DNA of 64,000 nt from Deltaproteobacteria bacterium (GTDB lineage: Bacteria; Desulfobacterota; Desulfomonilia; Desulfomonilales; Desulfomonilaceae): NCBI GenBank assembly GCA_016875095.1, contig VGSG01000001.1, positions 1 to 64,000 of the forward strand, given 5' to 3'. A program made the position numbers and the translations under genes. Positions 50,239-63,691 of this stretch are shown piece by piece. The number at the start of each line of letters is the position of its first letter. The stretch's first letter is position 1. The notes under the pieces were generated by a model. That model was not told the origin of the DNA, made no database searches, and worked only from the letters and a program-made list of their open reading frames with translations.

Positions 50239-50268
50239 GGCCCGATGTTTCACGTGAAACATCGGGCC
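50239..50268. promoter_or_regulatory. 30-bp perfect palindrome containing a consensus parS 16-mer
   Basis: The centre, 50246-50261, is TGTTTCACGTGAAACA, which fits the ParB-binding consensus TGTTNCACGTGAAACA exactly and is itself palindromic. Arms GGCCCGA and TCGGGCC extend the dyad to 30 bp. It lies 32 bases after the secG stop codon. It could also act as a terminator stem, but only TT follows on the plus strand; on the minus strand GTTTTATTT follows. No parA or parB is in the window. Confidence 0.7.
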
Positions 50269-50729: not shown

Positions 50730-52016
50730 CTATCTGGGGGGATTCTGGATTAGTTTGGCAAGGCCGCCGAACATATTCTTAACGGCTCTGAACATGGCCA
50801 CCATCTCACGCAACGCCTGCACTTCTTCTTCGGTGAGTTCCAGCTCGCCCTCCTCCGTGGCCGCCGTAGGCGCCTCCTTCATGGGCACGACCTTGGGTTT
50901 GGGAGGTACGGCCTTTGCCGGGGCTTCCACCTTCTCCGCGGGCTTCGGCGCCGCTGCTACTTTGGGAGCAGGTTTTTCCGCCTTCGGGGCTGCTGCGGGT
51001 TGGGGCGCCGCGGCCGCAGGCTTGGCGGCCTCCGCAATCAACGAGAGGTCCACCTTCATAGAATCAAGGTCCGTGGGGGCCATGATTTCCCCCAGATACT
51101 TCCGAATATGCTCCAAAGACCGGGGATGCCGGAGGATCAGCACGTCCGAACCGGCCTGCAAGGAGCTGATGGCCGTTATCACTTCCAAGTTGACTCCGCG
51201 GACCGCCGCGTCCCCCAGTTTCGGGTCTTCGCCGTTTGGCAGCTTGGCCTCCTTGGTTTTCCAAACTTCTTCCGCAATGTTATTGATGATCGGGTACTGG
51301 AGCTTGTCATCGTTCTGAGTCAGGGCCGCTTGTCGAATTCGTTCCATAATCGAGTAACAGTATTCGAGGCCGTAACCTACCCCGCCGGTGGTAGGATCGA
51401 TAAGGACTCTGTCATTGGGCACGCCCAGATTTTCCAGCAAGATGTTGAGTTGCTTGGCCAAGTTGATATCGATGGGGGTGTTGGCTGCCACCACATGCTT
51501 GTACGCGATGGCCGCCGCGCCTACCTGCTTGTAGTTATGCTCCGTCACCGGCCCAATGACCAGATTCTTCCCTTCGCAGGCCTCGCAAATCGCCTTAAGC
51601 GTTTCGGTGTTCTTCTCGTCGTTCGACACTCCCCAGACGATAAGCGGAAGATTGATCGCGTCCGCAACCTTCTTGGCGACCTCTGCCGCGTGATCCGCCG
51701 ACAGGTTCTTGCCGTTCGGGTCGGTTCCGGTCAACCAAAGGCAAACCGCGTCGGCTTTGTATACCTCCGCGCACTTCTTTGCCCAGGCAACCGGGTCCTT
51801 GACCGCATCTTTAAAGGGCTCGATGGCTTCGGCCGCCCACTCTTCCGGCTCGATGTCAAGAACTTGCAGCGCCAGAACAGGCGCATGAGGCATCTTCCCT
51901 TCAAAGGAGTAGAAGTTGTACGCCGTCTCGCCTCCGACAACCACCTCTGAACCTGGCTTACCGAACTTGATTTCTCTTATCTTTCCCGTGTACTTCACCT
52001 GCGGTAGTGCAGCCAT
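50730..52016 (-). CDS. acsD: Corrinoid/iron-sulfur protein small subunit AcsD (CdhD-like) with C-terminal extension
   Basis: Residues 1-325 match the CFeSP small subunit, a TIM barrel that with AcsC carries the methyl-corrinoid between methyltetrahydrofolate and acetyl-CoA synthase. VVGGETAYNFYSFEG, HKHVVAANTPIDINLAKQL, LIDPTTGGVGYGLEY and LILRHPRSLEHI are conserved blocks. After the barrel comes a ~65-residue Ala/Pro/Lys linker and then a C-terminal helix around EMVAMFRAVKN, which is absent from typical ~320-residue AcsD proteins and resembles the start of CooS in this window. The gene is on the opposite strand and 6 kb away from cooS-acsB-acsC. GGAAGGTGG precedes the start. Confidence 0.9.
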   Translation of the reverse strand: MAALPQVKYTGKIREIKFGKPGSEVVVGGETAYNFYSFEGKMPHAPVLALQVLDIEPEEWAAEAIEPFKDAVKDPVAWAKKCAEVYKADAVCLWLTGTDPNGKNLSADHAAEVAKKVADAINLPLIVWGVSNDEKNTETLKAICEACEGKNLVIGPVTEHNYKQVGAAAIAYKHVVAANTPIDINLAKQLNILLENLGVPNDRVLIDPTTGGVGYGLEYCYSIMERIRQAALTQNDDKLQYPIINNIAEEVWKTKEAKLPNGEDPKLGDAAVRGVNLEVITAISSLQAGSDVLILRHPRSLEHIRKYLGEIMAPTDLDSMKVDLSLIAEAAKPAAAAPQPAAAPKAEKPAPKVAAAPKPAEKVEAPAKAVPPKPKVVPMKEAPTAATEEGELELTEEEVQALREMVAMFRAVKNMFGGLAKLIQNPPR

Positions 52017-52471
52017 ACGCCACCTTCCTTCATATCGAGATTAGTAGCCCTCTTGCCCGGCCAACAAAGAACCGCTCGCCTTCCGGGTCCCTGAACCTCG
52101 GCGAGTGGCTGGAGCCTACATCGACCCGTCGGACACACTTCTTTGCTCAACCCCGCCACGATACGGGAAGTGAATCCGCGTACGCAACCCTTTTTCAGCC
52201 ATTTTGGATGTGGAGGGCGCTTGGGAGGCGTTCGCCTCCCCGCTTGCCCGACCCTTTGCTTCCATGAGCTCTTAACGCGTCACGCCGGTCAGGCAAGTCC
52301 TCAACCCATACTCTCATACCATACATCCCAGTTGTCATACAAGCGTTCTCTTATGCCTGCATTCTTAGCCGGAGCACCGGCCCCCGGCGCGTCGCGGGGA
52401 ACGGACCGGCTTGAATTCTGCGCGCTCCGCTGCAGGCTGCTCGCCCCGGCCATGCCCCGGACTGCCTGAGC
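52017..52471. other. Upstream region of acsD
   Basis: A GGGAGGCG/CGCCTCCC hairpin with a 2-base loop lies at 52223-52240, flanked by GGGC/GCCC. No gene is supported, and no strong promoter was found for acsD. It probably contains the acsD leader. Confidence 0.4.
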
Positions 52472-52909
52472 TTAGTCGTCCGAAGTCAGTTCTGCCCGAC
52501 CTCGAGCTATGATTCGCCCTATTTCCGCGGCGACGTGGAAACTCACTGAGATCGTGTTCCCGACCGCACGCGACCCCGTCATCGTCTCTTCCACTATGCC
52601 TTTGAAGGTAAGGTTTTCCTTGAGAAACGCGTGAGACAGGTGTTGGAGCCGGACACTCCTCACTCGCGCGCCGCGGGCCTGCCTCTCCAGGGCCGCGCAA
52701 GCCAAAGTCAGTATCCACAACGGATGGAGAGGGACCCGTGACTCCCCCACGCGCTCCGCCTCCTCTGTTACCAGGTAACGCGGATTGAAATCCCGCGCCA
52801 CCCGCGCTATTCGGAGGGAATGGTCTTCGAGCAGCGGGCCGATAGACATGGGAGCCAGATGATCCCCATCCCGGAAGGCGTCAGTCTCGAGTTTGGTCTG
52901 TCGCGCCAC
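52472..52909 (-). CDS. MaoC/hotdog-fold dehydratase-like protein
   Basis: The GTG start at 52909 has a well-spaced AGGAG; the open frame extends 13 codons upstream without a site. The sequence LAPMSIGPLLEDHSLRIARV, then ARDFNPRYLV and VPLHPLWILTL follow the hydratase-2 (MaoC) hotdog motif D-x4-H region, but the Asp/His pair is not clear (DFNPRY has no His), so catalysis is doubtful. The rest is a beta-strand-rich second half. It could be an inactive thioester-binding protein. Confidence 0.6.
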   Translation of the reverse strand: MARQTKLETDAFRDGDHLAPMSIGPLLEDHSLRIARVARDFNPRYLVTEEAERVGESRVPLHPLWILTLACAALERQARGARVRSVRLQHLSHAFLKENLTFKGIVEETMTGSRAVGNTISVSFHVAAEIGRIIARGRAELTSDD

Positions 52910-53001
52910 TTGACCACTCCTTTGCTTTTCATCGAAATCATACCACAAGACCCTTGGAACTCATCCAACACCGCAAAGCAAAGGCCGTGGTCTACCCTTT
53001 G

Positions 53002-53030
53002 TTGACAATTCCCTGTCATCTCCGTATAAA
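53002..53030 (+). promoter_or_regulatory. Consensus sigma-70 promoter
   Basis: TTGACA at 53002-53007 and TATAAA at 53025-53030 are 17 bases apart, with the gene beginning 44 bases later. Confidence 0.8.
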
Positions 53031-53073
53031 TCTGATTGCGCAAGTGGGAAAACACGCTGTTGAGGGCCCCCGA

Positions 53074-53316
53074 ATGGAACAGAGAGAGCTTGAACTTATA
53101 GAGGAGTGGCAAGAGAAGCTCCCCGAATTGAAGAAGCTGTGGCAGGAGCACCTTGAGCTTGAGGAACAACTCGACCGGTTCAATAAGCGCCTATATCTTT
53201 CCACAGCCGAGGAGATCGAGCGAAAAACCCTCCAGAAAAAGAAACTTAAGGGCCGAGACCAGATTGAACGCATCCTGACAGAAATTCGTGGCGGCGCTGT
53301 TTCCTTGAAGAGATGA
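53074..53316 (+). CDS. DUF465/YdcH-like small coiled-coil protein
   Basis: The 80-residue protein starts at the ATG at 53074, just after a good promoter; the open frame extends upstream to 52954, before that promoter. The sequence ELKKLWQEHLELEEQLDRF and then TLQKKKLKGRDQIERIL matches the DUF465 pattern of an antiparallel helical hairpin (EH...LE..L...KK.KL..KD.I). Its role in the cell is unknown. Confidence 0.72.
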   Translation: MEQRELELIEEWQEKLPELKKLWQEHLELEEQLDRFNKRLYLSTAEEIERKTLQKKKLKGRDQIERILTEIRGGAVSLKR

Positions 53317-53401
53317 CTCTCCTATGAGCGCGCGAGGAGTCTGCGCGGCGTCTATCCGCGTGGACCGCTCTCCCAACCGAGGATAATACCCTAGGGTGTC
53401 T

Positions 53402-54061
53402 ATGGCGGCGGGTACCAATCATAAAGAGCCGATAGCGCGAGAAGCTTTCCCGTATATGCTCGCTCCAGCCTTGTTGGCGGCCGTCTTGTGGTGGTGGGAT
53501 CTTCCGTGGCTCGCCCTCTTCTTTCTCGTGGCCACCATCGCGATAGCCCTCTTTTTTCGGAATCCCGACCGCAAGTCTCCCGAAGCCGACGGGCTGGTAG
53601 TCTCACCGGCCGACGGAACGGTCGTTGAAATAGCGGAAAACGCCCGTTCCACCAATTTGGATCGGGCCCCCCTTAAGCGGATCAGCATCTTCATGTCCGT
53701 GTTCAACGTGCATGTGAATCGTAGCCCCATGACAGGCAGAGTAGAGAAGATTACCTACTCAAAAGGCAAGTTCCTCGATGCTCGAGAAAAGGACGCGTCC
53801 GGCGTGAACGAACAGAACTCGCTCCTGCTCAAGTCGGGCGAGGACACGATAGAAGTGGTTCAGGTGGCCGGAAAAGTGGCGCGGCGCATCGCTTGTTGGG
53901 TCTCAGAAGGTGACGAAATGGCCCGGGGCGAACGGTTCGGCCTGATCCACTTCGGCTCCCGGCTCGATGTCTACCTCGGGCCGGAGTTTGAGGCACGGGT
54001 AGCCGTGCGAGCGCGCGTCAGGGCGGGAGAAACGGTCATAGCGGAAAAAAGGTCGTCTTAA
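53402..54061 (+). CDS. psd: Phosphatidylserine decarboxylase, short (archaetidyl) type
   Basis: The enzyme makes phosphatidylethanolamine from phosphatidylserine. Two N-terminal hydrophobic segments (LAPALLAAVLWWWDLPWLAL and the next ~20 residues) anchor it; VVSPADGTVVEI and FNVHVNRSPMTG are catalytic-domain motifs. The self-cleavage site is HFGSRLDVYLG, where Ser of GS becomes the pyruvoyl group. The length (~220 aa) fits the short family. The ATG at 53402 is taken; a GTG at 53396 is possible. pssA follows after 108 bases, as expected for one pathway. Confidence 0.92.
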   Translation: MAAGTNHKEPIAREAFPYMLAPALLAAVLWWWDLPWLALFFLVATIAIALFFRNPDRKSPEADGLVVSPADGTVVEIAENARSTNLDRAPLKRISIFMSVFNVHVNRSPMTGRVEKITYSKGKFLDAREKDASGVNEQNSLLLKSGEDTIEVVQVAGKVARRIACWVSEGDEMARGERFGLIHFGSRLDVYLGPEFEARVAVRARVRAGETVIAEKRSS

Positions 54062-54169
54062 GCCGGGGCCCCTTGTGGCTGCGAATTCTCTTGAATGTAG
54101 CCTTTTGGAGGCTGTAGAATCACAATAAGCGTAGTCGGCCTTTAGCCAATCGGGCGCGGGCGGTGATCC

Positions 54170-55027
54170 ATGGCGCACAAGAACACGCGAAAACGGCCTT
54201 TTTTCAGACGACGTCCCAGAGGCGAAACCGGGGATGAGCCTCGGGAGCGAGGCGCTCGGATTCGGCAGATGAAGAAAAGCATCTTTATCCTGCCCTCCCT
54301 GCTCACCCTGACAAGCGTCTTTTGCGCTTTCTATAGTATTGTCTGCGCCATTAAGGGCGCCTTTGTGCTCTCCGCGGCCCTTATTCTCGTTGCAGGCTTC
54401 TTCGACGGCTTGGACGGACGGGTTGCTCGTCTCACCAAGACTACCACTCGCTTCGGAGTGGAGCTGGATTCGCTTGCGGACGTGATTGCTTTCGGCGTAG
54501 CGCCTGCCCTACTTATGTACCAGTGGGCGTTGGCTCCATATCCTCGCGTAGGTTGGGTGAGCGCGTTTGTGTTTGTCGCTTGTGGGGCCCTTCGCCTAGC
54601 CCGGTTCAATGTTCAGACCGGCAGCATCGATCCGAAACGCTTTATCGGCCTTCCCATTCCCGCGGCCGCGGGTATGGTTGCGACTACAGTGATATTCTTT
54701 GACCACGTGGGCCTGAATCCAGCCGATTACGGTGTGCCGTTGCTGATACTTGTCTATGCGCTCTCTTTTCTCATGGTGAGCGGTGTCAGGTATCATGCGT
54801 TCAAGGACCTTGCGTTGGTCAAACAGAAGCCCTTCAGCTCGACAGTGGCTTTTGTCTTACTTCTTGCGCTGATTGCTGTGGCCCCGTTTGTTGTGCCTTT
54901 CTTTCTTTGCGCCGGCTATGTGATCTCCGGGCCTGTGCTGATGCTTGTTACGTATGTCCGTCCGAAGCGTCCCGAAGCCTCCAAGGCGCCGGCCGCGGAA
55001 GAAGCCGATGCTCCGGCCCCGTCATGA
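54170..55027 (+). CDS. pssA: CDP-diacylglycerol-serine O-phosphatidyltransferase
   Basis: This inner-membrane enzyme makes phosphatidylserine for Psd. The CDP-alcohol phosphotransferase motif is complete: DGLDGRVARL followed by FGVELDSLADVI, giving DGx2ARx8Gx3Dx3D. Several TM helices surround it (IFILPSLLTLTSVFCAFYS onwards). The first ~34 residues are Arg-rich and not seen in most homologues, so translation might start at the Met at 54269 instead. The last ~20 residues are an Ala/Pro-rich tail. The operon order psd-pssA-leuA recurs in many proteobacteria. Confidence 0.92.
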   Translation: MAHKNTRKRPFFRRRPRGETGDEPRERGARIRQMKKSIFILPSLLTLTSVFCAFYSIVCAIKGAFVLSAALILVAGFFDGLDGRVARLTKTTTRFGVELDSLADVIAFGVAPALLMYQWALAPYPRVGWVSAFVFVACGALRLARFNVQTGSIDPKRFIGLPIPAAAGMVATTVIFFDHVGLNPADYGVPLLILVYALSFLMVSGVRYHAFKDLALVKQKPFSSTVAFVLLLALIAVAPFVVPFFLCAGYVISGPVLMLVTYVRPKRPEASKAPAAEEADAPAPS

Positions 55028-55276
55028 AATAGGAATGATGAAGCCCTGCCCTGTGCAGTGATCCCTGTTTCGCCCGAAGAACCGCGTATCTCCGAGGGTG
55101 ACCCCCCAACGCCTCCACGGGCTCTGGCAGCGCTGATCGGTCTGTGTCAGAGACACGCCGCTTCCTCCGAGGTTCAACTCCGAATGCGAACATCTATGAC
55201 ACCTTTCAGGATGTCACAGACGGGAAGAGCGGTTGTGTCGCAAATCGAACTTCGGTGCATCGAGTAGGAGCCTGTC

Positions 55277-56812
55277 ATGTCCGAACGCGTGCTGATCTTT
55301 GATACCACTCTGCGCGATGGCGAGCAGTCCCCAGGCGCGAGCATGAACCAGCAGGAAAAAATGCAAATTGCCCGTCAACTGGAACGGCTCGGTGTAGACA
55401 TAATAGAGGCCGGCTTCCCCGCCAGCTCGGAAGGTGACCGCGAAGCGGTGGCAGCCATAGCCAAAGAAATAAAGAAAGCCCGGATCGTCGGTCTTGCCCG
55501 TTCAAACGCCCTTGACATTGACACCGCGTGGAAGGCGGTGGAAGGGGCGGAAAAGCCGGGCATTCACACCTTCATTGCCACCAGCGAGATCCATATGAGC
55601 CACAAGCTCAGAATGTCGCCTCAGGAAGTTATCGACCTGGCCGGTGAAGCGGTGCGGCTTGCGCGGTCGTACTCCGACTGGGTTGAGTTTTCCTGCGAAG
55701 ACGCCACCCGGAGCGATCCCGCGTTCATGTGTCAGGTTATTCAAGCCGCAATGGACGAGGGCGCCTGCACAATCAACATCCCGGACACCGTAGGATATGC
55801 GTACCCGGACGAAATGGCCGACCTTGTCAAGCACGTCCGCGCGAATGTCCGCGGAATCGAAAACGTTATCCTCTCCGTGCATTGCCACAACGACTTGGGC
55901 CTTGCGGTGGCAAACTCTCTCGCCGGGATTCGTGCCGGCGCGCGGCAGGTGGAATGCACGATTAACGGAATCGGAGAGCGAGCGGGCAATGCTGCGCTTG
56001 AGGAAATCGCGATGATCCTCAAGACGCGACGGGAGGCGCTCCCCTTCCACAGCGGAATAGTCACCAAGGAGATCTTCCATACCAGCCGCTTGGTCAGCTC
56101 CATCACCGGCGTGTCGGTTCAGCCCAACAAAGCGGTTGTGGGCTCCAATGCTTTCGCTCACGAAGCAGGGATCCACCAGCACGGAATTATTCAAGAGCGA
56201 AGCACGTACGAGATCATGGACCCTGAATCCATAGGTATGGGCAAATCGTCCCTTGTCCTGGGAAAGCATTCCGGACGACACGCATTCGGCGAGCGGGTGA
56301 AAGCTCTGGGATACACCCTTTCCGATGGGGAAATCGATCGAGCCTTCCGACGTTTCAAGAATGTGGCTGACAACAAGAAGACGGTTTTCGATGAAGACAT
56401 AGAAGCAATCATAGCGGACGAAATACTCCGGATCGCGGAAACGTACAAGTTGCTCTCCCTAACGGTCATGTCGGGTTCAGACGTGGTCCCTACCGCCACG
56501 GTTCGTATGGAAATCGAGGGCGCGGAGTACCACGGCGCGGAACTGGGGAATGGGCCGGTGGACGCCGCGTACAACGCGATTATGAAGCTCACAGGCCGCA
56601 AACCTACGTTGCGCCGGTTCTCCATTAGCGCCATTACCGGCGGCACGGACGCGCTTGGAGAGGTGAGCATCCAACTGGAGGAGGATGGGAACGTGGCGCA
56701 TGGACAAGGCAGCCACGAGGACATTATTGTCGCCTCGGCCAAAGCAATGGTCAATGCGTTGAACAGATTGCATTACATGGCCGGGAGGCCCCGCACCAAA
56801 GCTACCCTTTGA
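55277..56812 (+). CDS. leuA: 2-isopropylmalate synthase
   Basis: LeuA condenses acetyl-CoA with 2-ketoisovalerate, the first committed step of leucine synthesis. DTTLRDGEQSPGASM carries the metal Asp and base Arg, HCHNDLGLAVANSLAG the metal His pair, and NGIGERAGNAALEE the HMGL-like signature. The C-terminal ~120 residues form the LeuA regulatory domain that binds leucine. The start has TAGGAGCC upstream. It follows pssA by 249 bases, where I see no gene or leader element. Confidence 0.94.
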   Translation: MSERVLIFDTTLRDGEQSPGASMNQQEKMQIARQLERLGVDIIEAGFPASSEGDREAVAAIAKEIKKARIVGLARSNALDIDTAWKAVEGAEKPGIHTFIATSEIHMSHKLRMSPQEVIDLAGEAVRLARSYSDWVEFSCEDATRSDPAFMCQVIQAAMDEGACTINIPDTVGYAYPDEMADLVKHVRANVRGIENVILSVHCHNDLGLAVANSLAGIRAGARQVECTINGIGERAGNAALEEIAMILKTRREALPFHSGIVTKEIFHTSRLVSSITGVSVQPNKAVVGSNAFAHEAGIHQHGIIQERSTYEIMDPESIGMGKSSLVLGKHSGRHAFGERVKALGYTLSDGEIDRAFRRFKNVADNKKTVFDEDIEAIIADEILRIAETYKLLSLTVMSGSDVVPTATVRMEIEGAEYHGAELGNGPVDAAYNAIMKLTGRKPTLRRFSISAITGGTDALGEVSIQLEEDGNVAHGQGSHEDIIVASAKAMVNALNRLHYMAGRPRTKATL

Positions 56813-56893
56813 CCGCGGCATCGCCGCGCTCGTGAAATAGAGCGCTTTACATCAGTTGCCGGAATTTTCTCCGATTACTGCCCGGATATGGTA

Positions 56894-56965
56894 GGCGTCG
56901 GCCCCTACCGGTCTTCTTCAAGCGTGGGCTGTCCAAGAGGCCAAGAATGGTGACAACCGGTATAG
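56894..56965 (+). repeat. Dispersed 72-base repeat, copy B
   Basis: It matches 29431-29502 at 61 of 72 positions without gaps, in the same orientation, and is also in non-coding DNA. Nothing else is seen in the gap from 56813 to the promoter at 57225. Confidence 0.7.
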
Positions 56966-57224
56966 GAGTCCTAATTGAAGAGGTTGGGCGAAGCCTGGAA
57001 CGTTGGCCGAAGCCACGGACTTTCAAGATCCGCTGTAGCTTGTCAGCTATCGAAGTTCCTATTACTCACGAACTACGTGAGAAAGCATTGCGGCTTCTTG
57101 ATTAGTTCGATGAAGATCTATTATACTAAAGGCGGGTTGGGTCGCGCGCTCGGTCAGCATTAGTAGCACGTCACGAGCTATCTTTTGCGTTTCGTGCCAT
57201 ATGTGGAAAAATCTAAAAAAAGTA

Positions 57225-57253
57225 TTGAAACCGGATGTACACTGCTTCATAAT
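57225..57253 (+). promoter_or_regulatory. Candidate promoter of the CODH/ACS operon
   Basis: TTGAAA at 57225-57230 and CATAAT at 57248-57253 are 17 bases apart, about 105 bases before the first gene of the operon. Confidence 0.55.
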
Positions 57254-57357
57254 ATTTAGGCTCACCCATCGCGTTCCCTGTCCCATTATGCATGAGCGAA
57301 AGCCGAGGCACACGAGTGCCAGCGAGAGATAATCGCGAAGAAGAGAGGAGTCTCACG

Positions 57358-57588
57358 ATGGCGGACAAGTACGAGGAGAAACAGCGATTTGACGGAAAAA
57401 AGGTGAAAATTCTTCTGCCTGAGTATGGTCCCAATCCGGATGAGGAGCGATACCAGTGGCGGAGAAACATTACCGCGGTCAACCTAGCCGAAAGCGCTGA
57501 TCCGGTGCACAAGTATCTGGAGACCGCTGAAAGATACTTCTACTCCCAGGAGTGGTTTGGGAGCGAGAAGCGCAAGAACCCCGCGTAA
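57358..57588 (+). CDS. Hypothetical 76-aa protein at the head of the CODH/ACS operon
   Basis: The start at 57358 has GAGGAG at good spacing; 22 earlier in-frame codons lack a site. It is a small, charged, soluble protein (RFDGKKVKILLPEYGPNP, then HKYLETAERYFYSQEWFG) without cysteines or membrane helices. I recognise no family. It lies 167 bases before cooS, behind the only clear promoter, so it is likely co-expressed with CODH and could be an assembly or accessory factor. That is inference from position only. Confidence 0.65.
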   Translation: MADKYEEKQRFDGKKVKILLPEYGPNPDEERYQWRRNITAVNLAESADPVHKYLETAERYFYSQEWFGSEKRKNPA

Positions 57589-57755
57589 GCCCCTATGTGT
57601 TCCGTCCGAGCAAGGCAAATGTGCGCTCGGCGCGCCGAACATGGCTTTGACCCGGGCCATAGGGCTGACGCCGAGCCTGATGGTCTCAACCACAAATACC
57701 TGACGAAACGGCTGGAGCTCAAGCGTTTCGGCAGATGTAGAAAAGGAATGACAAT

Positions 57756-59906
57756 ATGGCCACACTGAGCAGGGAAGAAATTGAAGGTTTGAAGGAAATG
57801 GTAGGCGTTTTCAGGGCGATCAAGAACCTGGCCCAGGGCTTGGGCGGCATCGCGGGCGGAGAAGCCCCTGTTGCGGCTCCGGCGGAGGGACTTCCGGTGG
57901 TCGCCCCCCCGCCGAGGAAGAAGGAGCTGGGTCCGGTGGACTGGACGCAGCATACTATCGACCCGGTCACCTTGGAGGGCCTCAAGAGAGCCGATCAAGA
58001 AGGGTACAAAACCACATTTCATCGTGCGCTCACCATGACGGCATGTCCGATTGGCAAGGGCGGCACTTGTTGCAAGATCTGCAACATGGGCCCCTGCCGG
58101 GTGCTTCCTCCCAAGGGCAGAGATGAGACTCCCGAAGAGCGTAAGAAGAGAACCGGCCTATGCGGCGCGACTCCCGAGACCATCGCGGCTCGAAACTTCG
58201 CCCGCATGGTCGCGGCAGGCACCGCGTCTCACAGCGATCATGGCCGGCACGTAGCCCACACGTTTCTGCACGCGGCCAAAGGCGAGCTGCCCGACTATCA
58301 GATCAAGGACGTGCCAAAACTGCTTGCGTTGGCCCTGGACTTCGGAGTGGAGACCCAGGGTCGCGAGATTAAGGATATCGCTACTGAAATCGGCGAGAAG
58401 GCGCTCGCCCAGTACGGCCAGCAGGACGGCGAACTAACCTACGTCAAGAGAGCCCCCCTGAAGCGACAGGAGATCTGGCGCAAGGAAGGCGTGACCCCGA
58501 TCGGAATCGACAGATCCGTTGTGGAAGTTATGCACATGAGCTCCATGGGCGTGAACCAGGATATGGAACACATTATCCGCCTGGCCACCAGGTGCGCTCT
58601 TGCCGACGGTTGGGGCGGATCCATGATCGCCACCGATTTGTCGGACATCCTCTATGGAACGCCGGTGCCCATTCTGGGCAAAGTCAATTTGGGTTGCTTC
58701 AAGGAAGACACGGTGAACATAGTGGTGCATGGGCATGAGCCGTCCCTTTCAGAGATCATCGTCCAGGCGGTTCAGGATCCTGAAATGGTCAAGTACGCCA
58801 AGAGTAAGGGCGCGAACGGCGGTATCAGCCTGGGCGGCATTTGCTGCACCTCCAATGAGATTCTCATGCGGCACGGTATCCCAGTTGCGGGCAACTATTT
58901 GCAGCAGGAAATGGCCGTCATTACCGGCGCGGTCGAGGCCATGGTGGTGGATGTGCAGTGCGTCATGCAGGGTCTGGCGGAGCTGGCAAAGTGCTACCAC
59001 ACCCAGATCGTGACCACGAGCCCCATCGCCCAGATGCAGGGCGCATACAAGCACTATGCGTTTGACGAACATCATGCGCTCGAAACCGCCCGTGCGATCG
59101 TCAAGGACGCGATCGACAACTTCCCCAACCGAGACAAGAACAAAGTAGCGCTCCCCACCGAGCAGCAGGACATGGTGGTCGGGTTCAGCCACGAGACCAT
59201 CAATTACATGCTCGGCGGTATGTTCCGGGCCAGCTACCGACCGCTGAACGACAATATCATTAACGGCAAGGTCCGAGGCTTGGCAGGCATCGTTGGATGC
59301 GGGAATGCTCGTGTGAAGCATGATGAGCTCCATGTGACCCTGGCCAAGGAATTGATCAAGAACGACGTGTTGGTCCTCACCACCGGATGCTCGGCCATTG
59401 CTCTGGGCAAGGCGGGATTACTTACGCCTGAAGCCGCCCAAAAATACGCCGGAGCCGGTTTGGCCGAGGTATGCGACGCGGTGGGAATCCCGCCTGTGTT
59501 ACACATGGGCGCCTGTGTGGATAATTCCCGGATCCTTATGGCAGCCACGGCTGTGGTGCGGGACGGCGGACTTGGTGACGACATCAGCGACATTCCTGCC
59601 GTGGGTGTGGCTCCGGAGTGGATGAGCGAGAAAGCCGTTGCCATTGGGCAATACTTTGTTGCTTCGGGAGCTTACGTCCTCTTCGGAGTTGGGTTCCCGA
59701 CCATCAACGAGGACGTGTGCACCAATTACCTCTTCAAGGACATTGAAAAGGTTTATGGCGGCCGATGGGACTTCGTAGAGAAGGATCCTATGAAGATGGC
59801 CAAGAGGTGCCTCGCGCAAATCGATGCCAAGAGGAAAGCCCTCGGAATAGACAAGGCCAGGGAGCGGGTGCTGGCAGACATGGCCATGAGACGCGACCTG
59901 GGTTGA
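57756..59906 (+). CDS. cooS: Carbon monoxide dehydrogenase catalytic subunit CooS/AcsA
   Basis: The enzyme interconverts CO2 and CO at the nickel-iron C cluster and passes CO to AcsB. CCKICNMGPCRVLPP with the upstream Cys gives the D- and B-cluster ligands, GGICCTSNEILMRHG, GCGNARVKHDEL and TTGCSAIALGKAG give C-cluster residues, and GACVDNSRILMAA is also conserved. The first ~60 residues are an extra helix (EMVGVFRAIKN) and an Ala/Pro linker not found in typical ~630-residue CODH proteins. They resemble the C-terminal tag of AcsD. The overall length is 716 aa. Confidence 0.95.
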   Translation: MATLSREEIEGLKEMVGVFRAIKNLAQGLGGIAGGEAPVAAPAEGLPVVAPPPRKKELGPVDWTQHTIDPVTLEGLKRADQEGYKTTFHRALTMTACPIGKGGTCCKICNMGPCRVLPPKGRDETPEERKKRTGLCGATPETIAARNFARMVAAGTASHSDHGRHVAHTFLHAAKGELPDYQIKDVPKLLALALDFGVETQGREIKDIATEIGEKALAQYGQQDGELTYVKRAPLKRQEIWRKEGVTPIGIDRSVVEVMHMSSMGVNQDMEHIIRLATRCALADGWGGSMIATDLSDILYGTPVPILGKVNLGCFKEDTVNIVVHGHEPSLSEIIVQAVQDPEMVKYAKSKGANGGISLGGICCTSNEILMRHGIPVAGNYLQQEMAVITGAVEAMVVDVQCVMQGLAELAKCYHTQIVTTSPIAQMQGAYKHYAFDEHHALETARAIVKDAIDNFPNRDKNKVALPTEQQDMVVGFSHETINYMLGGMFRASYRPLNDNIINGKVRGLAGIVGCGNARVKHDELHVTLAKELIKNDVLVLTTGCSAIALGKAGLLTPEAAQKYAGAGLAEVCDAVGIPPVLHMGACVDNSRILMAATAVVRDGGLGDDISDIPAVGVAPEWMSEKAVAIGQYFVASGAYVLFGVGFPTINEDVCTNYLFKDIEKVYGGRWDFVEKDPMKMAKRCLAQIDAKRKALGIDKARERVLADMAMRRDLG

Positions 59907-59995
59907 TCGTTCGGAGAGTGTAGTAAAACCCGGTGAGGTTGCGACTCACCTCTCCGGATCTAAAGTTATCACTTTTCCCCAGGAGGATATGCACA

Positions 59996-62203
59996 GTGTC
60001 GAAGATAGTAGCAGCCAATGTCATAGCCGGCGCTCACAAGATTTATGAGCAAACGAGAAAGAAGTACGAGAAGGCTGTCAAGAAATACGGGAAGAAGAAG
60101 GAGATCAGCTTCCCCAATACCGGCTATTATCTGCCGGTCATTTACGGGATCCTCGGTTTTCCGGTGAAGAATCTCGGGGACGCGGGAGTGGTGCTAGATC
60201 GGTCAGAACAGCTCATTCCTCCGCAAGTCCGGGAGAAACACCACCTTCCCTATCTCGGCCCCGTGTTGGACGCGGGCATGGCCACTCTATTCAACTTCGA
60301 GATTTTCGAGGCCATACGGTACCTGGAAAACTCGGATTTTTATCTCCCGGCCGAAGAGCCCAGCGATGAGAAGCTCTGGCTCGGCGCGGCCGACGACGTG
60401 ATCCTGCGTAAGAGAGGCGTGGAGTTCGTTGACGGGACCGCGCCCGGCTTTGCCGCGGTGGTGGGTTCCGCGCCGTCAAAGGAGATCGCAGCCGATATGG
60501 CGTTGGAGCTTCAGAAGAAGAATCTTTACGTCTTCATGGCCGCGAACTACAACGGAACCACGTTCGCCCAGCAACTCATCGACGCGGGAGTGCAGATTGG
60601 ATGGAACACCCGTCTGGTTCCGTTCGGATCGGACATTTCTGCGGCGGTCTTTGCGGTGGGGTTCGCCACCCGGGCGGCCTTGAGCTTCGGCGGTATCCAG
60701 CCCGGGGATTTCCGCAAAGTGCTGATCTACAACAAGGACCGTGTGTTCGCGTTCGTGCTGGCTCTCGGGGACGTGACCGACGAGTGGTATGCGGCCGCGG
60801 CCGGCGCGATCAACTATGGGTTCCCAACCATAGCGGACACGCCTATTCCCGAAATCCTACCGACAGGGGTCTGCACGTACGAGCATGTGGTCTCCAATAT
60901 TCCACACAGCGAAATCGTCTCTAGAGGCGTGGAGATCCGAGGCCTGAAGGTCACGGTCACCGAAGTCCCGGTTCCTGTGGCGTACGGGCCCGCGTTCGAG
61001 GGCGAGCGCATCAGGGGTGAGGATATATACATTGAAGCCGGCGGCGGCAAGACGCAGGCCATCGAGTTGACCGTTATGAAGGAAATGGATCAGGTCGAGG
61101 ACGGTAAGGTGGAGCTTATCGGGCCGGACCTGAAGGACGTGGAAGCAGGGTCCAGGATACCGCTCGGAATTCTCGTCGAGGTCGCCGGTCGCAAGATGCA
61201 GAGCGACTTCGAGCCGATTCTGGAGCGCCAGATCCATCACCTGATCAACTATGCCCAGGGCCTGATGCACATAGGTCAGAGAGACATTGCGTGGGTCCGC
61301 ATCGGTAAAGGCGCTGTGGAAAAAGGCTTCAACCTCTCCCACATAGGATCGATCCTCCATGCCAAGTACCATCAGGATTTCGGCAATGTGGTGGACAAGG
61401 TCCAGGTGAAGATCTTCACGGACAAGACCAAAGTCGATGAGCTGTTGGCCCAGGCGCGGGGTGTCTACGCGAAGAGGGATGCGCGGGTCGAAGGCATGAC
61501 CGACGAGGATGAAAATACCTTCTACTCTTGCACATTGTGCCAGAGTTTCGCGCCTTCCCACGTCTGCGTGGTAACTCCCGAGCGCACCGGTCTGTGCGGC
61601 GCCTATAACTGGCTCGACTGCAAGGCGTCATTCGAGATCAACCCCACGGGCCCCAACCAGCCCATTGAAAAGGGGGCGGTCCTTGACGAACGCCTGGGTC
61701 AGTGGCAGGGAGTCAACGCCTTCGTCCAGCAGGCTTCCCGCGGTAAGGTGGAGAAGTACAACGCATATTCGATCATGGTTGACCCTATGACCTCCTGCGG
61801 TTGCTTCGAGTGCATCGCGGCCGTGCTCCCGGTGGCTAATGGCGTGATGTCCGTTGACCGCGACTACAAAGGCATGACGCCGTGCGGGATGAAGTTCACC
61901 ACCCTCGCGGGCAGCGCGGGCGGCGGAAATATCACCCCCGGCTTTGTGGGTCACAGCAAGCTCTACATCGCGTCCAGGAAATTCGTCGCCGCTGAAGGCG
62001 GCATTTTGCGGCTCGTCTGGTTGCCCAAGGCCCTCAAGGAACAACTGAAGGATAAGATCAACCAAATAGGCGCTGAGATGGGCGTTCCCGATCTGGCGGA
62101 CCGGATCGCTGACGAAACCGTGGGGACGACGGAAGACGAGATTCTGCCGTTCCTGCAGGAAAAGCAGCACCCCGCGGTGAACATGGAGTCGATTGTCGGT
62201 TAA
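59996..62203 (+). CDS. acsB: Acetyl-CoA synthase (CODH/ACS) subunit AcsB
   Basis: AcsB joins CO, a methyl group and CoA at the A cluster. The start is the GTG at 59996 with AGGAGGATAT upstream. The A-cluster ligands are all present at Cys512, Cys515, Cys524 and Cys534 (CTLCQSFAPSHVC onwards), and Cys601-Gly602-Cys603 (TSCGCFECI), each 6 residues later than in Moorella. The N-terminal CODH-binding domain is complete, making this the bacterial 735-residue form rather than the shorter archaeal CdhC. It starts 89 bases after cooS. Confidence 0.96.
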   Translation: MSKIVAANVIAGAHKIYEQTRKKYEKAVKKYGKKKEISFPNTGYYLPVIYGILGFPVKNLGDAGVVLDRSEQLIPPQVREKHHLPYLGPVLDAGMATLFNFEIFEAIRYLENSDFYLPAEEPSDEKLWLGAADDVILRKRGVEFVDGTAPGFAAVVGSAPSKEIAADMALELQKKNLYVFMAANYNGTTFAQQLIDAGVQIGWNTRLVPFGSDISAAVFAVGFATRAALSFGGIQPGDFRKVLIYNKDRVFAFVLALGDVTDEWYAAAAGAINYGFPTIADTPIPEILPTGVCTYEHVVSNIPHSEIVSRGVEIRGLKVTVTEVPVPVAYGPAFEGERIRGEDIYIEAGGGKTQAIELTVMKEMDQVEDGKVELIGPDLKDVEAGSRIPLGILVEVAGRKMQSDFEPILERQIHHLINYAQGLMHIGQRDIAWVRIGKGAVEKGFNLSHIGSILHAKYHQDFGNVVDKVQVKIFTDKTKVDELLAQARGVYAKRDARVEGMTDEDENTFYSCTLCQSFAPSHVCVVTPERTGLCGAYNWLDCKASFEINPTGPNQPIEKGAVLDERLGQWQGVNAFVQQASRGKVEKYNAYSIMVDPMTSCGCFECIAAVLPVANGVMSVDRDYKGMTPCGMKFTTLAGSAGGGNITPGFVGHSKLYIASRKFVAAEGGILRLVWLPKALKEQLKDKINQIGAEMGVPDLADRIADETVGTTEDEILPFLQEKQHPAVNMESIVG

Positions 62204-62248
62204 TGTGGCGCCGGCTATCGATTCGTGATAAAATCCTATCATAAGACG

Positions 62249-62272
62249 GGGGCTCCATATCCCCGGAGCCCC
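62249..62272 (+). terminator. Hairpin between acsB and acsC
   Basis: GGGGCTCC (62249-62256) pairs with GGAGCCCC (62265-62272) over an 8-base loop, followed by a T-rich run with interruptions (TTCGCTTTCTCCTTTTT). It may be a partial terminator or a processing/stabilising stem that lowers acsC relative to acsB. Confidence 0.6.
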
Positions 62273-62347
62273 TTCGCTTTCTCCTTTTTCAAGTGAAATC
62301 AAAGAGGTGCTTCGCGGGGGCTCAGCCGCGAAGGGAGGTTTTATTCT

Positions 62348-63691
62348 ATGGCGCTTTCGGGAATTCAGATCTTCAAGATGATGCCCAAGAAGAATTGTGG
62401 GGAATGTGGCGTGCCCACATGCCTCGCGTTTGCGATGAATCTAGCCGCAGGTAAGGCGGAGCTGGATTCCTGTCCGTATGTTTCAGACGAAGCCAAGGCA
62501 GCTCTTGCATCCGCCTCCGCGCCTCCGATACGAACCGTAGAGATCGGCGTGGGCGAAAAAATGGTGAAGACAGGCGGAGAGACAGTGCTGTACCGCCACG
62601 ACAAGACATTCAACAATCCCACGGCGCTTGGGTGCCTGGTCTCCACTTCCGAAAATGACACCACGGTGGACTCCAAGCTCAAAGCGTTCAAGGAGCTAAG
62701 GTACGAGCGTGTTGGCTTAACGCTAAAGCCTGAGATCATCGCAATCAAAGACGGCGGTGATGCCGGGCGCTTCGCCCAGCTCGCCAAGAAGGCATCCGAT
62801 GCGGGCGCGGCCCTGATCTTAATCAGCGATAATGCCGACACCATGAAAGCCGCATTGGCCGAAGTGGGAAAAGAGAAGCCGCTCATTTACGCTGCGACCG
62901 ATGCGAACGCGGATGCGTATGCGGACTTGGCCAAAGAATTCAACTGCCCTGTGGCGGTGAAATCCGACGGTGTGGGCAATATGGCCAAACTCAGCGCGAA
63001 GCTCATGGACAAAGGTCTCAAGGACATCGTGCTTGATTCGGGGAACAGGAAGATCTCGGAGCTTCTTCGGGACAACGTGATGATCCGAAGACTGGCCCTG
63101 GAGAGCCTGTACCGGCCTCTGGGTTTCCCCACGATCGTTTTCCCGTGCGAGATGGCGGATAACCCTGTGGATGAGGCGATCGTTGCGGGAACGTTCGTGT
63201 CCAAGTACGGCGGTATGGCAATTCTCAGCGATCTTCGCGGCGAAGTGCTCTTCCCGCTGCTTTTGCAAAGGCTGAACATCTTTACCGATCCGCAGAGGCC
63301 CATGACCACGGAGCAGGGGATCTACCCAATCAACAATCCGGGCAAAGATTCCCCTGTCCTGATTACGAGCAACTTCTCGCTCACGTACTTCATTGTTTCC
63401 GGCGAGGTCGAATCAAGCCGTGTGCCGTCCTGGTTATTGGTGCTCAACACGGACGGTCTCTCGGTGCTCACCGCGTGGGCAGCCGGAAAGTTTGTCGCCG
63501 ACCTGATCGGGCCCTTTGTGAAGAAGAGCGGCATAGAAGACAAGACCGCAACGAGAACGATCGTGATACCGGGCGCAGCCGCGATCATCAGCGGCGACCT
63601 GGAAGAAGAGCTGAGCGGGTGGCGGGTGGCTATCGGCCCGCGGGAAGGCGCCCATATCCCGGCCTACCTGCGACAGAACTACGCTAAGTAA
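62348..63691 (+). CDS. acsC: Corrinoid/iron-sulfur protein large subunit AcsC
   Basis: AcsC carries the [4Fe-4S] cluster and, with AcsD, the corrinoid that shuttles the methyl group to AcsB. The cluster ligands Cys17, Cys20, Cys25 and Cys42 follow the Cx2Cx4Cx16C pattern (KKNCGECGVPTC). The barrel with LGCLVSTSEND, VVALDSGN-type phrase IVLDSGNRKIS and the C-terminal corrinoid domain (ITSNFSLTYFIVSGE) are full-length at 447 aa. It is 144 bases after acsB, behind a hairpin. Confidence 0.94.
   Translation: MALSGIQIFKMMPKKNCGECGVPTCLAFAMNLAAGKAELDSCPYVSDEAKAALASASAPPIRTVEIGVGEKMVKTGGETVLYRHDKTFNNPTALGCLVSTSENDTTVDSKLKAFKELRYERVGLTLKPEIIAIKDGGDAGRFAQLAKKASDAGAALILISDNADTMKAALAEVGKEKPLIYAATDANADAYADLAKEFNCPVAVKSDGVGNMAKLSAKLMDKGLKDIVLDSGNRKISELLRDNVMIRRLALESLYRPLGFPTIVFPCEMADNPVDEAIVAGTFVSKYGGMAILSDLRGEVLFPLLLQRLNIFTDPQRPMTTEQGIYPINNPGKDSPVLITSNFSLTYFIVSGEVESSRVPSWLLVLNTDGLSVLTAWAAGKFVADLIGPFVKKSGIEDKTATRTIVIPGAAAIISGDLEEELSGWRVAIGPREGAHIPAYLRQNYAK

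Follow-up and report, generated by a model that had tools for sequence, protein, structure and literature searches.

What does one and the same helix do at the C-terminus of AcsD and at the N-terminus of CooS? The question is raised by a 64,000-nucleotide stretch, the window, of a Desulfomonilaceae bacterium of the phylum Desulfobacterota (assembly GCA_016875095.1, contig VGSG01000001.1, positions 1 to 64,000). The window encodes all four subunits of the carbon monoxide dehydrogenase/acetyl-CoA synthase (CODH/ACS) of the acetyl-CoA pathway, an ancient CO2-fixing route: CooS, AcsB and AcsC are adjacent at 57756-63691 on the plus strand, and AcsD lies at 50730-52016 on the minus strand. A sequence-only reading had taken the helix for a recombined docking tag that tethers the corrinoid protein to CODH or binds both to a common scaffold. 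We find that the helix joins AcsD and CooS in one fused protein of sister bacteria, so it is most likely what holds both enzymes together. The physical join is real in relatives, but the idea of a freely recombined tag is not supported.

The two tagged proteins of the window have the following parts.

50730-52016, minus strand: AcsD, the CODH/ACS delta subunit (corrinoid protein small subunit), 428 aa, matched by PF03599 (E = 1e-43), NF040759 and NF003377.
50841-51080, minus strand: Ala/Pro/Lys/Glu linker of AcsD, residues 313-392, beyond the PDB matches and unconserved in the alignment.
50745-50840, minus strand: C-terminal helix tag of AcsD, ELTEEEVQALREMVAMFRAVKNMFGGLAKLIQ, residues 393-424, located by pairwise alignment and profile search, its position 3 charged as in other standalone AcsD tags.
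57756-59906, plus strand: CooS/AcsA, the CODH catalytic subunit, 716 aa, matched by PF03063 (E = 6e-164) and TIGR01702 (612 bits).
57765-57851, plus strand: N-terminal helix tag of CooS, LSREEIEGLKEMVGVFRAIKNLAQGLGGI, residues 4-32, located by pairwise alignment and profile search and scored as fusion subtype (+10.95 bits; see below).
57855-57935, plus strand: Ala/Pro linker of CooS from the tag towards the core, to about residue 60; the structure model has low confidence at 8-57 and a confident core from about 61.

Both tails lie outside the standard folds, as the sequence-only reading held. The AcsD core is matched by PDB 2h9a, 4djd and 9fzy, and all these matches stop at 312-313, placing the end of the fold near residue 312; the last 116 residues are the linker and the helix. 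In CooS, the TIGR01702 match begins at residue 70, and the ~60-70 residues N-terminal of the family model consist of the helix and the Ala/Pro linker.

The similarity of the two helices is confirmed to be far above chance. The gap-free alignment of LTEEEVQALREMVAMFRAVKNMFGGL with LSREEIEGLKEMVGVFRAIKNLAQGL has identities at 14 of 26 positions, in agreement with the 14 counted earlier, and scores 78 by BLOSUM62, whereas 20,000 shuffled pairs gave a mean of 20.6, a standard deviation of 4.2 and a maximum of 48. Their DNA is similar across 53 bases. A profile built from the pair found only these two sites in the genome (E 4e-22 and 3e-21), and the next match had an E of 1.0.

The sequence-only reading had proposed to look for the same tag on other pathway proteins; the profile search of the genome and of the family and phylum found no helix copy on AcsB, AcsC, MetF or any other protein. 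The five MetF-family matches in the genome have ordinary frame lengths of 308-357 aa. Nor are the tails two separate known families. Pfam gave only weak matches to domains of unknown function for some tags, and a match to PDB 6h9l, a repeat protein, was confined to TKEDIEALRE-like stretches; both identities were rejected. Plasmid and viral collections yielded nothing relevant.

The scan of CooS relatives reached Desulfomonilaceae-type genomes at 79-87% identity. Their CooS frame is open far upstream and reads AcsD, an Ala/Pro/Lys linker, the same helix, an Ala/Pro linker and CooS in one frame. This fusion occurs in ten other Desulfomonilaceae genomes, complete with 1108-1150 aa in seven (G009, G011, G013, G014, G015, G016 and G017) and cut by the contig end in three (G001, G005 and G007). 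It is present in every other family genome with an assembled CooS 5′ region, and in the family the two enzymes usually take this form.

A standalone AcsD ending in the helix is found in six genomes (G001, G003, G005, G007, G009 and G011), and AcsD and CooS are the only carriers of the helix within the family. It is present in 12 of the 18 family genomes, including all eight of good quality (completeness of 90% or more, contamination of 5% or less), so the tag is conserved in close relatives. The window shares with the fusions (L008, L009, L010, L013 and L017) the same helix, the same kind of linker and the same gene order. However, its AcsD and CooS are not one open frame but two genes on opposite strands, 5.7 kb apart, and each of the two proteins has its own helix and linker, which do not lie between the cores of one chain. 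A physical AcsD-CooS link is well supported by the fusions of the relatives.

We consider it likely, with a probability of roughly 60%, that the window encodes a split tether, in which the helix is the middle segment of the fusion and keeps AcsD and CooS in proximity by helix-helix association. AcsD at its C-terminus and CooS at its N-terminus would each retain a helix copy on a flexible Ala/Pro linker. The tether would hold the methyl-carrying corrinoid protein (AcsC-AcsD) near the CODH/ACS core, covalently in the relatives and by association of the helices in the window genome. Since the helix is the only thing common to both separate proteins, this association would be the simplest way to retain the tether, and from it we infer direct pairing. 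The corrinoid protein must visit both the methyl donor and ACS, so long flexible linkers fit a tether; they would let it move between the two. Helix pairing would then raise methyl transfer.

The helix falls into two subtypes common across species, with K/Q or D/E at position 3; in the window, this position is R in the CooS helix and E in the AcsD helix. With +10.95 bits, the former scores as the fusion subtype. The ratio of nonsynonymous to synonymous differences per site (pN/pS) is 0.03-0.28 for the helix, with synonymous sites near saturation, and 0.25-0.28 for the standalone AcsD tags. Unlike the helix, the linkers are unconserved in the alignment. The helix is kept in two subtypes under purifying selection. 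The two free helices of the window differ by a pS of 0.85, so the pair is old.

In G001, G005, G007 and G009, the fused and the free AcsD are ~90-100% identical in DNA through the available core into the linker, but the identity falls to ~40-60% before the helix. In G009, the AcsD cores are 99.7% identical as proteins. Near-identical AcsD copies with divergent helices point to gene conversion (or recent duplication) that keeps the AcsD parts alike and stops short of the helix. Near-identical AcsD copies inside one genome, suggestive of gene conversion, are seen as L068/L069, L077/L078, L079/L080 and L081/L082. In three genomes the contig end falls inside the fused or free AcsD.

Several observations weigh against the split tether. 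In the CooS model, a single-chain prediction, the helix at 6-32 stands apart from the confident core at low confidence, with a predicted local distance difference test score (pLDDT) of ~40. The AlphaFold model of AcsD (six rows) has a pLDDT of 44 and is unusable. The helix is confined to one family, and its amphipathic moment does not reach significance (p 0.07-0.3). Membership of the window AcsD helix in the standalone subtype is weak: it scores -1.54 bits against -9 to -37 for the other standalone tags, while its position 3 is acidic as in that subtype.

The gene order bears on how the split arose. In the relatives it runs pgk-tpiA-secG, standalone AcsD on the opposite strand, zf120, psd, pss, leuA, orf98, the fusion, AcsB and AcsC. 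G013 and G017 have no standalone AcsD there, and that of G011 lies elsewhere. The window has the same order minus the fused AcsD half, and its sole AcsD, the only copy in the genome by family match search, sits in the standalone place. There it ends in the helix beside secG on the opposite strand, as in G001, G005 and G009 and, by the tail, in G003 and G007. The further features of this region are the following.

57292-57588, plus strand: orf98, a small conserved gene recognized by synteny, which precedes the fusion in relatives and matches the L161 AcsD tail (BLASTP E = 3e-10).
57589-57755, plus strand: gap of 167 bases between orf98 and CooS, the site of the fused AcsD half in relatives, with its own ribosome-binding site.
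59933-62203, plus strand: AcsB (acetyl-CoA synthase), untagged, NF040764 at 1103 bits.
62348-63691, plus strand: AcsC (corrinoid protein large subunit), untagged, NF003195 at 586 bits.

No AcsD remnant is detectable in the 167 bases between orf98 and the window CooS. The sequence-only reading had argued from the opposite ends and strands that the likeness was neither chance nor a simple duplication in place. Chance is indeed dismissed, but in place of the recombination it invoked, the two sites are explained by a fusion (AcsD-helix-CooS) and a duplicate gene for AcsD with its helix; the window lacks the AcsD half of the fusion. orf98 itself has no Pfam match and ends in GSEKRKNPA; in other families, a C-terminal domain of AcsD is homologous to it (L161/L162).

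This order of events could be reversed, with split tagged AcsD and CooS preceding fusions made by recombination inside the helix. Such a history would leave the same working mechanism and seems rather unlikely. The tree of CooS, AcsB and AcsC together, in which the window falls into an unresolved basal fork of the family, is compatible with it, and so is the varying presence of AcsD2, the standalone copy, among genomes. However, in the AcsD tree the window groups (92/93) with G015, a genome with the fusion, and all other lineages whose locus is assembled have the fusion too, which makes the loss of one AcsD half simpler. The two trees do not settle the polarity between fusion and split. An artefact, in which misassembly of two near-identical copies lost the fused AcsD half, is very improbable. 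The 4.7-Mb assembly is in 202 contigs, near-identical AcsD copies can break assemblies and the contigs of several relatives end inside AcsD, but here both genes lie on a single contig of 169,686 bases, the genome has one AcsD, and CooS has its own 167-base leader with an ATG and a ribosome-binding site instead of a truncated linker.

The other doubts concern what the helices do. Instead of pairing, each helix might bind a third partner, such as another subunit, a membrane or a scaffold, in which case the fusion is incidental. This we hold to be unlikely, although six genomes conserve the helix at the free terminus of a standalone AcsD and a common partner would explain two similar yet distinct subtypes equally well; neither another protein with the helix nor a candidate scaffold was found. 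A PF00936 microcompartment shell gene is also lacking from the genome, a 100% complete assembly, which argues against such a partner and led us to reject microcompartment targeting. Alternatively, the helices of the window genome could be functionless leftovers of the fusion, still similar because the loss is recent, and the split may be so, as the fusion is seen wherever else in the family the 5′ region of CooS is assembled. This is improbable: the standalone tags are kept in six genomes at the low pN/pS given above while linkers diverge, and the window copies, old by their pS, both retain the motif.

A helix-CooS protein might also be made beside the fusion. All ten fusions keep an ATG directly ahead of the helix, and the window CooS starts at the corresponding position. 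In the fusions this internal ATG is preceded by a purine-rich, ribosome-binding-site-like stretch with a duplex energy of -5.9 to -11.9 kcal/mol; 306 other in-frame ATGs average -2.5 kcal/mol. We offer the internal start as a suggestion, since glutamate codons alone could explain part of this duplex signal.

The helix profile was run against 395 genomes of the phylum, and its strong matches were in Desulfomonilaceae only. Five weak matches fell outside. Two of the five were examined (L090-L092 were left out) and taken as chance, as they resemble a Lon-type protease and a ScpA-type protein, both named from sequence.

AcsD frames elsewhere in the phylum are often long, and fifteen of them were read. 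Pfam was run on one or two members per fused kind, the remaining assignments being read from the translations. L157:1816-5184, from another family, fuses AcsD to CooS with a different helix in the linker. L158-L160, from the sister family of the class, have AcsB fused to a divergent AcsD (~40% identity). L152-L156 and L166 have MetF and AcsD in one frame with long linkers and likely helices, and L155 has TPR repeats by Pfam. L161 and L162 have AcsD with an orf98-like domain. L163-L165 have AcsD with a Lys/Ala/Glu-rich charged C-terminal tail of ~150-200 residues and a similar short motif at the end.

In the MetF-AcsD, AcsB-AcsD and L157 fusions, AcsD is likewise tied to a pathway partner by an Ala/Pro/Glu linker, but the linker helices are not detectably related to the Desulfomonilaceae helix. 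Common ancestry with that helix was rejected, as the best score of -2.2 bits lies inside the shuffled range. Hence, AcsD seems to have become tethered to its pathway partners on several independent occasions, which suggests repeated selection for such tethering. Tentatively, Desulfobacterota may repeatedly build tethered Wood-Ljungdahl assemblies, with the corrinoid protein tied to CODH, ACS or MetF via flexible linkers with docking helices. As part of this doubtful generalization, the helix pair in Desulfomonilaceae would combine fused and free AcsD and CooS in one complex, the conserved internal start giving helix-CooS alongside the fusion.

Microcompartment encapsulation peptides are short terminal helices behind an Ala/Pro linker. 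The tag has a similar layout, but besides the missing shell protein, the helix also stands mid-protein in relatives. By family match, the window has the same four subunits (AcsA, AcsB, AcsC and AcsD) as the Moorella-type bacterial CODH/ACS, and the PDB matches of its AcsD core agree. In the acetogens, however, the corrinoid protein is described as free-standing, while the methanogen complex is called stable (PMC11474084); here, AcsD and CooS share a helix and form one chain in relatives. The methanogen acetyl-CoA decarbonylase/synthase likewise holds its corrinoid protein stably with CODH and ACS (PMC11474084). That holding is by subunit assembly, a helix or an AcsD-CooS fusion was not found described for it, and the window subunits are of the bacterial type.

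No published description of these fusions, AcsD-CooS included, was found in the pathway papers searched. A 2026 study of the pathway in Desulfobacterota leaves fusions unmentioned and removed sequences of unexpected domain make-up (PMC12827605). The supplement of a 2019 CODH survey lists CODHs fused to other proteins, and some of the fusions may already be catalogued there (PMC6344411). The system is real; its parts are ordinary, known enzymes, and what is new is how they are arranged, as the split version of a fusion tether. It addresses the structural question of how the corrinoid protein delivers methyl to ACS while CODH supplies CO. The natural AcsD-CooS, AcsB-AcsD and MetF-AcsD fusions, together with a split version that has retained the helix of the junction, point to selection for proximity in bacteria. 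Such fusions would offer ready-made stable complexes for structure work.

A parS-like ParB-binding site, TGTT(T/C)CACGTGAAACA, adjoins secG and the standalone AcsD at 50246-50261 of the window and in seven relatives (L069:7305, L077:17593, L079:445, L082:1352, L083:15763, L073:19226 and L074:19426). In several genomes it is the stem of a terminator-like repeat after AcsD.

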